Origin: an uncultured Eubacteriales bacterium
GTDB lineage: Bacteria; Bacillota; Clostridia; Christensenellales; Aristaeellaceae
Reading direction: 5' to 3'
Assembly (NCBI GenBank): GCA_902761825.1
Contig: CACWLY010000017.1
Coordinates: forward strand, 1 to 64,000
DNA length: 64,000 bases
The translations under genes were made by a program, and so were the position numbers. Positions 2,700 through 8,405 of this stretch are shown here, piece after piece. The notes below the pieces were generated by a model. That model had not been told where the DNA came from and made no database searches. It worked only from the letters and a program-made list of their open reading frames with translations. The stretch's first letter is position 1. Each line of letters opens with the position of its first letter.

Positions 2700-2825
2700 T
2701 TACGCTTCGACCTTGCTGTCTCGCACGATCTGGGCGGCTTCCTGAGCTGCTTCCTTGTCCTTGAGTGTCGCTTCGATCAGTTTTGCGATGTTCTCAAGGA
2801 ACTTGTTCAGCTCCTGGGCTGTCAT
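2700..2825 (-). CDS. Short acidic/helical protein downstream of a coupled leader
   Basis: A 41-residue helical protein (MTAQELNKFLENIAKLIEAT at the N-terminus, ending VRDSKVEA). A longer open frame exists upstream, but it runs through the promoter and ribosome site, so I reject it as coding. A 38-bp exact tandem duplication (2798-2835 and 2836-2873) covers the start. The first copy has the good ribosome site (GGAGGGAGGA), but its ATG at 2863 opens a 13-codon frame whose TGA overlaps this gene's ATG (ATGA). Translation is therefore probably by coupling, or the duplication has damaged the gene. Confidence 0.45.
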   Translation of the reverse strand: MTAQELNKFLENIAKLIEATLKDKEAAQEAAQIVRDSKVEA

Positions 2826-2873
2826 CTCGTCCACTGGAACTTGTTCAGCTCCTGGGCTGTCATCTCGTCCACT
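2798..2873. repeat. 38-bp exact tandem duplication
   Basis: Two back-to-back identical 38-bp copies begin GGAACTTGTTCAGC and end TCGTCCACT. The unit length is not a multiple of three, so the duplication shifts the frame between the ribosome-site-proximal start and the body of the gene at 2700-2825. Confidence 0.95.
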
Positions 2874-2922: not shown

Positions 2923-2967
2923 ATATTACACCCGATTCGGGTGTTTGTCAACACTTTTTTCGGGTGT
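2923..2967 (-). promoter_or_regulatory. Island promoter P1 with two 17-bp operators
   Basis: On the minus strand TTGACA (2946-2951) and TAATAT (2923-2928) are spaced by 17 bp. The spacer is filled by the operator ACACCC-GATTC-GGGTGT (2928-2944). A second copy, ACACTT-TTTTC-GGGTGT, lies just upstream at 2951-2967. The design is the same as promoter P2 at 4623-4651, so one repressor probably controls both operons. Confidence 0.75.
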
Positions 2968-2978
2968 AATACAATTTT

Positions 2979-3917
2979 TTATGCGGCAATTTGCTCTGCG
3001 AACGCTGCGGTCAGATGGAGTCTGGCCGTTTTGAATTCCGGGCCCCGCATGTGAAGCCGATTCTTCAGGACAGCCAGCATAAGCTTCCCGCGCTGTTCCT
3101 TGCTTTCATAGTGGGCGCTCTTCATGAAGTACAGGTTGTCCTTGGCGTTGATAGCCCATGCGCTCATGGCCAGGCAGAACTGGACGTACGCCTTGATCTT
3201 GCCAGCGTGGGTCGTTCCGTTGAACAGCCGGAACTCTACGGTGCCCTTGGTGAAGAAAGCATGGAGGTTCACGCCGTGATACCTGGAGCTGTCATAGTGG
3301 GCGTGGCTGATCCCGCCGATATGGCCGTCATTGATGGAGCTGTACCAGATGCGCTCCATGGATTCGCGGGAGCGAACGCTGTCATGCTTCATGGCTTTCA
3401 GCAGATTGGCGTTGATCTTTTTGCACCAGCGGTTTTCCCGGTCACCGATCTCCAGCGCTTCGTAGAACAGATCCTGACGGCCGACGGCGAAGTTGATCAG
3501 CCTGGTTAGGGAATCAGGCGTGTGGTTCGCGCCGTCCACATGAACGTGGATTCCGCAGCTGCTGTTGGCGATTGCTCCTGCCTCCCTGAGCTTCCGAATG
3601 ATTTCCTGCAGAGCTTCCAGATCCTCGTACTGGAGGATCGGCGTCACCACTTCGCAGCGATGGTCATCGGAGGACCGGCCTTCGCTGACAGAACGGCGAT
3701 GTCCGCGGACATTGATTTCCGGACTGATGGAGATATCCCGCATGCACTTCCAGGTGCGGCCTTTGTTGTCCTTGGCCGTCCGAGTATCGTATCCGTCGCT
3801 CAGACGCCCGGTGGCGGTCCCACCGAAGTATCCCGAGATAACCTGCGCGGCCTTCTCACGGGTGATGCCGGTCAGTTCGATCTCTACGCCGAAGTTCTGA
3901 TTCTGAATGGTGATCAT
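2979..3917 (-). CDS. Amidoligase family protein (COOH-NH2 ligase)
   Basis: A 312-residue protein matching the putative amidoligase family (Pfam Amidoligase_2). It has an N-terminal NFGVEIELTGI strand with the metal-binding glutamates, CEVVTPIL near residue 90, a CGIHVHVDG motif near residue 120, and VEFRLFNGT near residue 230, which supplies the conserved E-x-R. The family is predicted from fold analysis to form amide bonds using ATP, in the glutamine-synthetase/carboxylate-amine-ligase superfamily. The ATG at 3917 has an AAAGGAG site. It lies 32 bp downstream of the gene at 3950-4573, in the operon driven by P2. Its partner may be the cyclotransferase-like protein at 750-1166. The substrate is unknown. 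Confidence 0.85.
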   Translation of the reverse strand: MITIQNQNFGVEIELTGITREKAAQVISGYFGGTATGRLSDGYDTRTAKDNKGRTWKCMRDISISPEINVRGHRRSVSEGRSSDDHRCEVVTPILQYEDLEALQEIIRKLREAGAIANSSCGIHVHVDGANHTPDSLTRLINFAVGRQDLFYEALEIGDRENRWCKKINANLLKAMKHDSVRSRESMERIWYSSINDGHIGGISHAHYDSSRYHGVNLHAFFTKGTVEFRLFNGTTHAGKIKAYVQFCLAMSAWAINAKDNLYFMKSAHYESKEQRGKLMLAVLKNRLHMRGPEFKTARLHLTAAFAEQIAA

Positions 3918-3949
3918 GGTGGTATCTCCTTTCAATCCTGCCAGGCTGT

Positions 3950-4573
3950 TTAGTGAAGCACTACGCGGTTCTTGCCGACAGTGATCACGGTGTATTCAAA
4001 GCGGTTGTCGTTCCAGCTGCGGGTGACCTTGGCAATGCGGTTCATCTTCATGTTCGGTTTTCCCATATGGCGGCGGACAGCGGGGAGAAGGACCTTCCTG
4101 ACCTCATCAGAAGTGATGTCCTTTGTGCGGATCCTGGCTTCTTCTACACGTTCCAGATCGTATTTTGCGCGGAGGCGGCTGTAATACTTTTCCATGGCCG
4201 CTTCGCCTTCTTCGCCTTCCAGGTACCAGTCTGCGTCACGACGGCTGCCGATTTTGAAGAAGATGCGCTTCTCGATGACATCCAAGCGTTCGTTCCAGAT
4301 GATGGCGTCCCGGCCAAAGCCGCGGGCGTTGATCACCCGTTCGTCATCACACCGGCCGACGGTAAGAACGATTGCTTCGGCGGTCCTGAAGTTCTCGCCC
4401 CAGATCGTTTCCTGGTGGAGCATTACCCGGATCACTTCGTTGCCCTTCCGAAAATCAATCTTAGCGATTTCTCCCTGGGAGCCGTTCATCGTGTTGGTGT
4501 TGATCTGATAACCGGCGTTCAGGAACTCGGAGATCTTGGCGGCGTAGATGGCGTTGATTTCTGTGGACTTCAT
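3950..4573 (-). CDS. Hypothetical island protein, first gene of the P2 operon
   Basis: A 207-residue soluble protein with no recognised domain. The N-terminal part (AAKISEFLNAGYQINTNTM, then GSQGEIAKIDFRKGNEVIRV) looks like an alpha-beta fold; the C-terminal part is basic (PNMKMNRIAKVTRSWNDNRF). It starts at the ATG at 4573 behind GAAGGGAGAAAACACC and is the first gene after the operator-controlled promoter at 4623-4651. Proteins of this kind recur in conjugative elements in my recollection, but the function is unknown. Confidence 0.65.
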   Translation of the reverse strand: MKSTEINAIYAAKISEFLNAGYQINTNTMNGSQGEIAKIDFRKGNEVIRVMLHQETIWGENFRTAEAIVLTVGRCDDERVINARGFGRDAIIWNERLDVIEKRIFFKIGSRRDADWYLEGEEGEAAMEKYYSRLRAKYDLERVEEARIRTKDITSDEVRKVLLPAVRRHMGKPNMKMNRIAKVTRSWNDNRFEYTVITVGKNRVVLH

Positions 4574-4622
4574 GGTGTTTTCTCCCTTCGTTGATGTCTT
4601 AGTTGGTATCGCTTACAACCAT

Positions 4623-4651
4623 ATATTACACCCAAAACGGGTGTATGTCAA
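4623..4651 (-). promoter_or_regulatory. Island promoter P2 with embedded operator
   Basis: On the minus strand TTGACA (4646-4651) and TAATAT (4623-4628) are spaced by exactly 17 bp. The operator ACACCC-AAAAC-GGGTGT (4628-4644) fills the spacer, in the same register as in P1. It drives the hypothetical gene at 3950-4573 and the amidoligase. Confidence 0.75.
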
Positions 4652-4660
4652 GAGGCAATT

Positions 4661-4715
4661 ACACTTTTTTTCAGTGTTTTTTACACTTGACACGGGTGCA
4701 CGTTTGCGGTAGTAT
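4661..4715 (+). promoter_or_regulatory. Island promoter P3 with two operator-like sites
   Basis: TTGACA (4687-4692) and TAGTAT (4710-4715) are spaced by 17 bp and lead to the GTG-started regulator at 4738. Operator variants ACACTT-TTTTT-CAGTGT (4661-4677) and ACACTT-GACAC-GGGTGC (4683-4699) sit upstream of and across the -35 box. This suggests autoregulation of the divergent P2/P3 pair. Confidence 0.65.
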
Positions 4716-4737
4716 AAGAGGCGAAGGAGGTGAGACT

Positions 4738-4983
4738 GTGACAAAGTATTCACGGCTCCGCTATAAGATGAACGTGCTGTCCGCTCTCAAAGAGGCTGGA
4801 TACACAACCGGCCGGATCCGCAGTGAGAAGATTATGGGCGAACAAATGCTGCAGAAAATCCGGAAGGGTGAAGAAATGCCATCATGGGGAACAATCGAGA
4901 CGATATGCAGAATTCTCAATTGCCAGCCCGGCGATATTGTCGAATATGTTCCCAGAAACGAAGGAGCCGATGACGATGCGTAA
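4738..4983 (+). CDS. XRE/Cro-type transcriptional regulator
   Basis: An 81-residue DNA-binding protein with the helix-turn-helix pattern of the XRE (HTH_26) family. A short N-terminal helix is followed by SEKIMGEQMLQKIRKGEEMP as turn and recognition helix, then ETICRILNCQPGDIVEYVP, the typical LxCxxGDIVE ending. The start is a GTG at 4738 behind the strong site AAGGAGGTGAGACT; an upstream ATG frame runs through the promoter. It is the best candidate for the repressor that reads the five ACACCC-N5-GGGTGT sites around P1, P2 and P3. It overlaps the next gene by 8 bp. Confidence 0.8.
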   Translation: MTKYSRLRYKMNVLSALKEAGYTTGRIRSEKIMGEQMLQKIRKGEEMPSWGTIETICRILNCQPGDIVEYVPRNEGADDDA

Positions 4984-5350
4984 TCTTGGAACGACTTACC
5001 GTATTGGCGGAGTTTTCATGGTTGAAAATATGACAAACGGGAAGATGCTCATAGGTTCTTCGTTTGACGTTGAAGGGTACAGAAAGCGTCTTCGAAAACA
5101 GCTTGAGGCCGGGCAGCATCCGAATCTGGAATTGCAGAAAGACTACAGCAATCATAATCGGTTCCGCTTTAATCTTCTGCATGTCGGCATTTATCCAAAG
5201 TATCAGGATTATAGCAATGAGCGCCGGAAGTTGTATGATCTCGAAAGAAAATACGAAAAAAAGTATGGTGTGCTAGAGGGTGGTTACAATCGCCCTGTAG
5301 GAAAAAAGAAAGAAGCCCCGGATGCGTCAACATCCGAGGCCGGGGAGTGA
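4976..5350 (+). CDS. GIY-YIG-like nuclease domain protein
   Basis: A 124-residue protein whose first 70 residues follow the GIY-YIG pattern in diverged form: GGVFMVENMTNGKMLIGSS replaces the usual GIYxIxNxxNGKxYIGxS. It is followed by FDVEGYRKRLRKQLEAGQHP and LELQKDYSNHNRFRF, matching the conserved R, H/N and LQ positions. The first Tyr pair is changed (GVF, LIG), so cleavage activity is uncertain. The C-terminal 40 residues are charged (YDLERKYEKKYGV). The ATG at 4976 is 9 bp after AAGGAG; 4970 is an alternative. It is co-transcribed with the XRE gene. A partial or regulatory homing-type domain is also possible. Confidence 0.6.
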   Translation: MRNLGTTYRIGGVFMVENMTNGKMLIGSSFDVEGYRKRLRKQLEAGQHPNLELQKDYSNHNRFRFNLLHVGIYPKYQDYSNERRKLYDLERKYEKKYGVLEGGYNRPVGKKKEAPDASTSEAGE

Positions 5351-5353
5351 GGA

Positions 5354-5605
5354 TTACAGCTTCTTGGGATTGCCTGCAAAGTCGTGCGTGACTTTGGGTT
5401 CCTTATTGGGCACTCTCACGATAATATCTGATATATCACAGTCCAGTGCTTCACAGATCAGATCGAGATGCTCAAAGCTGATCCTTTCAGCAAACTCATT
5501 GTAGAGTTCGCTGATCGTGGTGGGACGGATACCGGTGGCTCTTGCCAGGTCCGCCTGATTACGCCGGAGTTCGCCAAGCTTCCGGGAGAGAACGATCTTA
5601 ATCAT
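5354..5605 (-). CDS. XRE-family transcriptional regulator (HTH_26)
   Basis: An 83-residue regulator with a clear helix-turn-helix: SRKLGELRRNQADLARATG, IRPTTISELYNEF as turn and recognition helix, then DLICEALDCDISDIIVRVP, the standard HTH_26 ending. I start at the ATG at 5605 (MIKIVL); an ATG at 5614 and a TTG at 5608 are alternatives near the AAGGAG site. It converges on the GIY-YIG-like gene with a 3-bp gap. An inverted repeat GTTATCA-N14-TGATAAC at 5665-5692 lies upstream and could be its own operator. Confidence 0.8.
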   Translation of the reverse strand: MIKIVLSRKLGELRRNQADLARATGIRPTTISELYNEFAERISFEHLDLICEALDCDISDIIVRVPNKEPKVTHDFAGNPKKL

Positions 5606-5664
5606 CAACACCATGCTCCTTCGTGTGAGATTCTAACATCCTTTTGCAGATTTCGCTTGAATTT

Positions 5665-5692
5665 GTTATCATTTCACGCAATGGGTGATAAC
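5665..5692. promoter_or_regulatory. Inverted repeat upstream of the XRE gene
   Basis: GTTATCA (5665-5671) and TGATAAC (5686-5692) form a perfect 7-bp inverted repeat about 60 bp upstream of the minus-strand XRE gene. Its sequence differs from the ACACCC-type operators, so it probably belongs to a different regulator. Confidence 0.4.
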
Positions 5693-5730
5693 ATATCGGA
5701 TTATGTTAGAAAGGGAGGAGCACGGGGTTG

Positions 5731-5775
5731 AAAAAAGGGCCTACGCTTCATTCGAGAAGCATAAACCCTTTTTTA
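5731..5775 (-). terminator. Rho-independent terminator downstream of ssrA
   Basis: AAAAAAGGG and CCCTTTTTT flank an inner stem GCTTC/GAAGC. Read on the minus strand it ends in a T run and lies about 100 bp beyond the CCA end of the tmRNA gene. Confidence 0.6.
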
Positions 5776-5870: not shown

Positions 5871-6220
5871 TGGTGGAGGTGAGGAGAATCGAACTCCTGT
5901 CCGAAGACCAAAGTACGGCATTTTCTCCGAGCGCAGTTTACATTTTGGATTTCCCGCATCCGAACGCCTGTAAACGGGCTTTCGGGTTTGGTAGCTTCAT
6001 TTTACCGGCCTTGCCGCAAAGCTTAGGCGGGCCTGTTCCTCACATCGATGACGCCGCTTGCTGAAGCCGTGAGCGCTTCAGGGCGACGGCCGCCAATCAG
6101 GCAGCGAAAGCGTAACTGTTAGTGTCAGTTATTTTTTATAGTTCCCCGTTTTTACGAGGCCAGGGTCCTCGGCTCGCTTATCCCGTCCTTCGCAATCCCC
6201 GTCGAAACCAGTACACCCCC
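5871..6220 (-). ncRNA. ssrA: Transfer-messenger RNA (tmRNA)
   Basis: The minus strand opens GGGGGTGTACTGGTTTCGAC and closes GGAGTTCGATTCTCCTCACC then TCCACCA, which are the tRNA-like ends of tmRNA with a T-arm and encoded CCA. The tag frame at 6126-6097, after the conserved AACT, reads DTNSYAFAA and stops with TGA, giving an (A)DTNSYAFAA degradation tag; the phase follows the Bacillus AACTGGC arrangement. The length is about 350 nt, normal for Firmicutes. smpB is directly upstream on the same strand, 13 bp away. The 3' end marks the boundary of the island at 1-5870. Confidence 0.96.
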
Positions 6221-6791: not shown

Positions 6792-8405
6792 TTACCGCCT
6801 GCGCGCCTGCTTGTCGGCGTACATGATCTTGTCGGCCCGGCGCAGGGTGTCGATCACGCAGCGATCGGATTTGGGATCGTACACGGCGACGCCCTTCGCG
6901 ATATGCACCTGATTCCACTGGTTTTCGTTATCCGCGTTGATCTCTTCGCTTTCCTTTTCAAGCTGGCGGATAAGCTGTTTCCTGTTCTCGTAATCCCGGT
7001 TTTTCAGAATGACGGAAAACTCGTCGCCGCCGATGCGGAACACGGGGCTGTGCGAAAAGACCCGGCAGATCGTCTGGCAGGCCGTTTTCAGATAAACGTC
7101 GCCATTTTCGTGGCCGTAACGGTCGTTGACCGTTTTCAGGTCGTCGCAGTCGAATACGCCGATCGCGTACTGCATCTGCCCGTCGCCGCCGTCCATCTGG
7201 TTTTGCAGCTCCTCGATGGCGCTGCTGAACGCGCCCTTATTCTTTACCGAGGTCAGCGCGTCCACGTACACGCGCTTGTTCAGGTCCGTGATATGCTCCC
7301 GCATATGGTCGGCCAGACGCCTGAACGTGCTTGTCAGCCGTCCAACCTCGTCATTTCCGCTGTACAGCAGCGTAAAATCGTAATCGCCGCGGTTCACCTG
7401 CTCGGCGGCCTGGGTCAATTCCTCGAGCGGCCTGGTGATGCGCCGCGTATACAGCATGGTAAAAGCGCTCATGGCCAGCAGCACGCCGCCGGAAAAGACA
7501 AGGATCATGCGCACCACCCGCTGCCAGCCCGCGTCGGTCTCGGAGATGGGCACGGTCACGTTCAGGCGCATCCCGTTGCTCAGCGGCAGCCACGCCCCCT
7601 GCTTTTCCACGCCTTCAAAGGTATAGCGGAAGAAGGTGGCGCTGCCGACCGCGCCTTCGGGAACGGCGGGCATCCGGTCGTCCGTCAGCGCCGACACGTC
7701 GATATGCGGATGGAAGAAAAGCGCGCCCGACGCGTCGCTCAGATACGCGTAGCCGCTGCTGTACAGGCGGATGCTCTCCACCTGCTCGGCCATGGTGGAA
7801 TAGTCGATCTCGATGCCCACCACGCCGACGAAGCGCCCCCGGTAATAAATGGGGACGTTGTAGGAGATCACGCGCACGTCCAGATTGTCCGTAATATAGG
7901 GCGGGAGCCAGATCGGTTTCCCGTCGTGCTTGGGAACGGTGAACCAGACCAGCCGGGAGGTATCCTGCGTGTCGTAAAGCGTGATATCGGTCACCTCATG
8001 CTCGGTGAACCCTTTTCCGTCCAGGTTCGTGTACCAGAAGCCCTTCACCGTGTCGGAGATTTCGGGATCGATCCGGTAATAATAGGTCAGCACGCCGTTG
8101 GTTCTGTACACCATCTCGTCAAAGAATTTGCGCACGCGAAGCATGTGGCCTTCCAGCTGCGCGGTATCCAGGCCGTTCAGATCGTCCTCCACGAAGGAGA
8201 CGACCTTACCGACCGAGTTCTTCACGCCGTCGAAATAATAATTCAGGTTATGCTCGCCTGTTTCGCACATCAGCAAAAGCAGCTGCTCCGTTTCGCGGCG
8301 CTCGTTTTTCCGGATGAATATCTCGCTGGAGATCGTGACGACAGCCAGCGTAACGACAACGGTCAATACCGTCAGCAGCGTAATCCTCGTGCGCAAAGAA
8401 CGCAT
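6792..8405 (-). CDS. Membrane diguanylate cyclase (Cache-HAMP-GGDEF)
   Basis: A 537-residue enzyme making c-di-GMP from two GTP. Residues 8-30 are a membrane anchor, followed by an extracellular Cache-type sensor of about 260 residues, a second membrane span (VFSGGVLLAMSAFTMLY), a HAMP linker (RRITRPLEELTQAAEQVNRG) and a GGDEF domain. The active-site loop RIGGDEFSVIL is intact, and the metal Asp is in FDCDDLKTVNDRYGHENGD. No RxxD inhibitory site precedes the loop (SHSP instead), so product inhibition may be weak. Its start is 38 bp downstream of the 984-residue c-di-GMP gene, so the two form an operon. Confidence 0.92.
   Translation of the reverse strand: MRSLRTRITLLTVLTVVVTLAVVTISSEIFIRKNERRETEQLLLLMCETGEHNLNYYFDGVKNSVGKVVSFVEDDLNGLDTAQLEGHMLRVRKFFDEMVYRTNGVLTYYYRIDPEISDTVKGFWYTNLDGKGFTEHEVTDITLYDTQDTSRLVWFTVPKHDGKPIWLPPYITDNLDVRVISYNVPIYYRGRFVGVVGIEIDYSTMAEQVESIRLYSSGYAYLSDASGALFFHPHIDVSALTDDRMPAVPEGAVGSATFFRYTFEGVEKQGAWLPLSNGMRLNVTVPISETDAGWQRVVRMILVFSGGVLLAMSAFTMLYTRRITRPLEELTQAAEQVNRGDYDFTLLYSGNDEVGRLTSTFRRLADHMREHITDLNKRVYVDALTSVKNKGAFSSAIEELQNQMDGGDGQMQYAIGVFDCDDLKTVNDRYGHENGDVYLKTACQTICRVFSHSPVFRIGGDEFSVILKNRDYENRKQLIRQLEKESEEINADNENQWNQVHIAKGVAVYDPKSDRCVIDTLRRADKIMYADKQARRR

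Follow-up and report, generated by a model that had tools for sequence, protein, structure and literature searches.

Several described systems place a small HTH repressor at the promoters of a mobile element. In TP901-1, divergent promoters are combined with three operators (PMC4941734). For Aca proteins, inverted repeats are found in the core promoter, and these promoters are repressed in reporter assays (PMC9410906). The prophages of C. clostridioforme LM41 carry divergent CI/Cro-like regulators as well as amidoligase and GGCT accessory genes (PMC11318856).

The module described here belongs with these known small repressors, which are CI/Cro-, Aca- or CylR2-like. It shares with lambda OR and with the CI system of TP901-1 (OR, OL and OD) a small HTH regulator, divergent promoters and three operators, one of which is located on the regulator promoter. 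It differs from them in that neither a CI-type C-terminal domain nor a second repressor is seen, that it sits over cargo genes at what is most likely a prophage end, that its operator abuts the -10 box in a near-fixed register, and that an extra promoter, P1, was apparently copied from the promoter P2. As for Aca, the regulator, XRE1, is a small HTH protein of a mobile element, and an inverted repeat lies within the core promoter that drives an accessory operon; however, aca lies in the same operon as the acr genes whereas XRE1 is transcribed divergently from its cargo. Beside XRE1 no anti-CRISPR gene was recognised, and the adjacent genes match amidoligase, GGCT and unknown families. The structural neighbours of the XRE1 model are CylR2, VanUg and the SaPI2 Stl DNA-binding domain (1utx, 3tyr and 8q86), which share its small HTH fold. 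In sequence, too, VanUg is the top match in the PDB, but similarity to these proteins is weak (16–28% identity) and the Foldseek E-values are above 0.001. The LM41 elements resemble the module in being clostridial prophages with divergent regulators and amidoligase and GGCT accessory genes, but operators are not described there (the word "operator" is absent from the main text, PMC11318856). In the open literature, which leaves out most subscription journals, we found no description of this HTH_26 module.

The window, by which we mean the whole stretch of 64,000 nucleotides that was analysed, has its base 1 at the contig start; as the contig is cut at this point, the window contains no phage structural genes. 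In the 5.9 kb ahead of the tmRNA gene ssrA (5871–6220, minus strand) there are leftward genes encoding DUF3846, gamma-glutamyl cyclotransferase and amidoligase domains (Pfam, PHROG), a divergent HTH_26 regulator gene overlapped at its end by a GIY-YIG gene, and a convergent gene for another HTH_26 protein. In a family member, G053, the homologous stretch (contig 5, L256) comes after long tail-type ORFs, a PF06605 prophage tail endopeptidase and a PF04531 holin, and stops at the same ssrA boundary. Because of these tail and holin genes on one side and the ssrA boundary on the other, what the first-pass annotation had called an island most likely represents, judging from this homology, the right-hand end of a gut-type Clostridia prophage, and we have corrected the label. 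The ssrA gene is the probable attachment site. A second att copy (tmRNA end) marking the other prophage edge was not found in the organism's own assembly, which is 2.87 Mb and 87% complete and in which the contig begins at window position 1.

The control region consists of three promoters and five operators, the latter scored as matches to ACACCC-N5-GGGTGT out of 12. Promoter P1 (2923–2951, minus strand; TTGACA 2951–2946, 17-bp spacer, TAATAT 2928–2923) reads into a small gene starting at 2700, the 2700 gene; operator P1-O1 (2928–2944, ACACCCGATTCGGGTGT, 12/12) fills its spacer and P1-O2 (2951–2967, ACACTTTTTTCGGGTGT, 10/12) is located 23 bp from P1-O1. Promoter P2 (4623–4651, minus strand; TTGACA 4651–4646, 17-bp spacer, TAATAT 4628–4623), whose equivalent in relatives is the divergent promoter, reads into the genes for a 207-aa protein and an amidoligase, and its spacer is filled by O1 (4628–4644, ACACCCAAAACGGGTGT, 12/12). 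P1-O1 and O1 occupy the same register in their spacers, abutting the -10 box. O2 (4661–4677, ACACTTTTTTTCAGTGT, 8/12) lies at +33 from O1 (32–36 in relatives), and O3 (4683–4699, ACACTTGACACGGGTGC, 9/12) covers, likewise in relatives, the -35 box of the regulator's own promoter P3 (4687–4715, plus strand; TTGACA 4687–4692, 17 bp, TAGTAT 4710–4715). The window thus shows a divergent three-operator layout, with one operator over the regulator promoter and O2 and O3 as weak copies. The first-pass annotation had proposed the five sites at 2928, 2951, 4628, 4661 and 4683, the filling of both 17-bp TTGACA/TAATAT spacers in one register and the overlap of the 4683 site with the -35 box ahead of the XRE gene at 4738, and all of these agree with our reading of the sequence. 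Its assignment of the amidoligase and the 2700 gene as targets stands insofar as the promoters read into both operons, but the P2 operon opens with the gene for the 207-aa protein and the amidoligase comes second.

Two perfect 17-bp palindromes occur in the window compared to none in 40 dinucleotide shuffles, which is significant. Their position is significant as well: the 64 kb contain 20 strong promoter-like sites, of which just P1 and P2 have a spacer that is palindromic throughout, where the shuffles give an expectation of 0.000. Matches to the degenerate pattern ACACYYNNNNNRRGTGT in the 2.87-Mb assembly are confined to three of the five sites, while its backwards control has 0 matches. 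A plain count of sites with two or fewer mismatches was discarded as evidence (3 seen in the window, 1.6 expected; not significant). The 4661 and 4683 sites are weak alone and draw their support from sites in the corresponding positions of relatives. The operator sites are confirmed as real.

The regulator XRE1 (81 aa; 4738–4983, plus strand) has a GTG start with GGAGG upstream and a PF13443 score of 42 bits against a curated Pfam cutoff of 22, which makes it a member of the HTH_26 (Cro/C1-type DNA-binding) family. The GIY-YIG homing-endonuclease-like gene (4970–5350, plus strand; phrog_7168, E=3e-7; TIGR01453, weak) overlaps the regulator stop codon and is probably on the same transcript; the order regulator then GIY-YIG also occurs in locus L168. 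The P2 operon comprises the 207-aa phage protein (3950–4573, minus strand; phrog_38037), which has an 85% identical copy in G053, and the Amidoligase_2 protein (2979–3920, minus strand; PF12224, E=9e-64; phrog_2443). This pair (2979–4573) is kept together in many family members, often without an adjoining divergent regulator. The 2700 gene (2700–2872, minus strand) has its start split by a 38-bp tandem duplication at 2801–2874, which shifts the frame and creates a 16-codon leader ORF (GTG 2872); the main ORF starts at GTG 2834 in the feature list, and the leader TGA overlaps its ATG (ATGA). The second HTH_26 protein, XRE2 (86 aa; 5354–5614, minus strand; Pfam), is the convergent neighbour of XRE1 and the GIY-YIG gene. 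Within the stretch 5614–5740 upstream of XRE2 there is a 28-bp inverted repeat, GTTATCA...TGATAAC, flanked by TCTAACAT/ATGTTAGA; these repeats are largely conserved in G053 and are probably XRE2's own operators. Between the convergent genes, in the 3' end of the GIY-YIG gene, there is a GC-rich hairpin (5313–5345) that is conserved in G053 and is a possible terminator and recombination boundary.

Relatives were gathered in searches that used the regulator and an alignment of five sequences as queries, which yielded about 100 usable cases from Clostridia genomes and viral contigs. Many XRE1 relatives are on phage contigs, and the phage records include Faecalibacterium phage Aster, a phage recovered in induction experiments (PMC11792537). 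A divergent promoter with a palindromic spacer is present in 46 of 75 core relatives; among the 1081 other promoter-like sites of these loci, 15.5% have such a spacer. A second site lies near +34 from the first (at 32–36 bp in 35 of 50 loci) and a third near +69, where it overlaps the -35 box of the regulator. The remaining operator spacings keep the usual 10.5-bp phase (R=0.59, n=15, p=0.006); the O1–O3 pair of the window, a layout variant with a distance of 55, is among the 15. In the 63 loci passing a geometric filter, 12.5–14 bp separate the operator centre from the start of the -10 box, a range that the filter itself partly imposes. The first-pass annotation had named the lack of site conservation in related elements as a refuting outcome, and its proposal passed this check, for the architecture is conserved; the half-site sequence, in contrast, differs per element (ACACCC, ACACTA, ACACGA, GCACCG, TCACTA, ACTCCAG, GACCTA, AATCGA and TCGCTT). 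Its interpretation is thus partly supported: with sites well placed in three promoters and this architecture conserved in related elements, one phage-type control region is supported.

No family is common to most of the divergent operons, the largest cluster having 9 members, and a conserved target operon was thus not found. Relatives seldom have orphan promoters of the P1 kind; 48 loci contained 20 extra sites, with 13.5 expected from foreign operators. Extra operators as a general regulon feature of the relatives were rejected, since they hardly exceed this foreign-operator control, and P1 is therefore the exception and not the rule. On viral contigs, a looser pattern of operator plus TGTCAA matched 44 places, none adjoining an HTH_26 relative and several having shorter palindromes (N3) or other regulators nearby; similar sites therefore serve other regulators too. 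On the viral contigs L290, L299, L273 and L301, palindromes such as ATACACCC-N3-GGGTGTAT lie beside a TGTCAA box with no HTH_26 neighbour.

Comparison of the window with the closely related G053 prophage revealed flanks that are 84–89% identical around a segment, 4630–5299, containing the operators, the regulator and the GIY-YIG gene, that is unaligned and replaced in G053, with homology breaking at the operator edge. The region 2571–2977, with the 2700 gene and P1, also has no alignment to G053. The G053 prophage module retains none of the ACACCC-type sites. Its two operons are each accompanied by a separate divergent gene whose product is HTH-like but of a different type, without a match to a Pfam HTH family, and a different palindrome, GTACAACATTTTGTAGTAC, lies in the spacer of the amidoligase-operon promoter. 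In genome G094 (L257, ~7400–7770), a homologue of the 207-aa protein is found with a different HTH-like regulator, and a GTAAC...GTTAC palindrome fills the divergent promoter spacer, the same architecture with an apparently unrelated regulator. The P1 region has no regulator gene beside it and aligns with the P2 region over ~80 bp including the leader, with a score of 65.5 against a maximum of 43.5 in mononucleotide shuffles, the shared operator and promoter boxes making up part of the similarity; ~10 bp, about one helical turn, is missing between its two sites. The alignment is most simply read as P1 having been copied from the P2 control region, which would put P1 under the same protein. We think it improbable that the regulator and operators form a mobile cassette in which the GIY-YIG endonuclease, made from the same transcript, cleaves rival cassettes at the edge of the promoter and so leads to specificity replacement; if true, such homing would explain both the homology break at the operator boundary and the varied operators on a fixed promoter scaffold.

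To ask which protein reads the sites, the half-sites were compared with the regulators. Half-site divergence tracks HTH residues 24, 35, 36 and 39 given the rest of the protein, with a partial r of 0.485 (0 of 2000 permutations) for columns picked from the same data and sequences that are related and not independent; for the rest of the protein given these residues, the value is only 0.07. In a 9-residue window scan, which uses no pre-chosen columns, the signal is highest over residues 20–43 and near zero or negative over 46–74. The AlphaFold model of XRE1 (pLDDT 77, moderate confidence) has helices at 24–29 and 35–43, the latter being the recognition helix. Operator divergence thus appears to be accounted for by residues in the recognition helix and helix 2, with little contribution from the remaining residues, and this covariation is indirect support for XRE1 binding the operators and controlling both promoters. 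Because the operators covary with its HTH residues and XRE2 is kept where the operators are absent, XRE1 is the better candidate reader, and we propose it for all five sites. A different protein, such as the adjacent XRE2, which is also an HTH_26 member, is a most unlikely reader: XRE2 is retained in the G053 prophage where the ACACCC-type sites are gone, its own upstream region bears the different GTTATCA...TGATAAC repeat, and the residues with which the operators covary are those of the XRE1 family.

The sites, promoter geometry, conservation, covariation, cassette exchange and P1/P2 similarity are established, and we consider it likely that they reflect a prophage cargo-control module in which an XRE1 dimer represses P2, limits P3 and controls the copied P1. 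The dimer would bind the palindromes, perhaps cooperatively. At O1 it would fill the 17-bp P2 spacer, block RNA polymerase and so repress the 207-aa/amidoligase operon; repression by polymerase exclusion, as for Aca, is suggested because the operators fill the spacers of near-consensus promoters. Bound at O2 and O3, XRE1 would limit its own promoter P3, and such autoregulation is predicted because O3 covers the -35 box of the regulator. P1, with duplicated O1, O2, -35/-10 boxes and 5' leader and about one helical turn shorter, would place the 2700-gene operon under XRE1. That XRE1 instead activates P1 and P2 is highly improbable, as O1 lies within the core promoter, flanked by -35 and -10 boxes close to consensus, and a protein bound there normally excludes RNA polymerase, and as Aca repressors with inverted repeats in the core promoter repress in reporter assays (PMC9410906). 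The module could also be the main lysis-lysogeny (immunity) switch, with XRE1 CI- or Cro-like and the divergent operon early lytic. This would fit the three operators between divergent promoters, as in TP901-1 (PMC4941734), the early-type-looking ORFs (SSB, Gp157, ArdC-like; by eye) that open the divergent operons of other elements, and the position of the gene near the integrase in Faecalibacterium phage Aster and Flavonifractor phage Chenonceau. We nevertheless judge it unlikely, since in the window and in G053 the module is found at the cargo end by ssrA, beyond the holin and tail genes, over amidoligase/GGCT-type genes and with no early or integrase genes nearby, and since XRE1 is a bare HTH protein without a cleavable or oligomerising domain. 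In these two prophages the module lies over cargo genes at the prophage end rather than over an early lytic operon or integrase, which some relatives may control. Given its location at the prophage cargo end beside the probable attachment site, the window module looks more like an accessory-operon repressor than a lysis-lysogeny switch.

Taken across the family of about 100 related phages and prophages, most well-aligned members share this layout, with a site "password" that differs between them and is matched to the protein. Dozens of related repressors, each with its own operators at one near-fixed promoter position, constitute a natural library, and the recognition rules of the HTH family are therefore directly readable and testable. 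The library could supply orthogonal repressor-promoter parts for gut Clostridia. Our comparison also suggests how prophage cargo may be rewired, either by the swap of a whole control cassette, as in G053, or by the copying of a promoter and operator to a second operon, as in P1.
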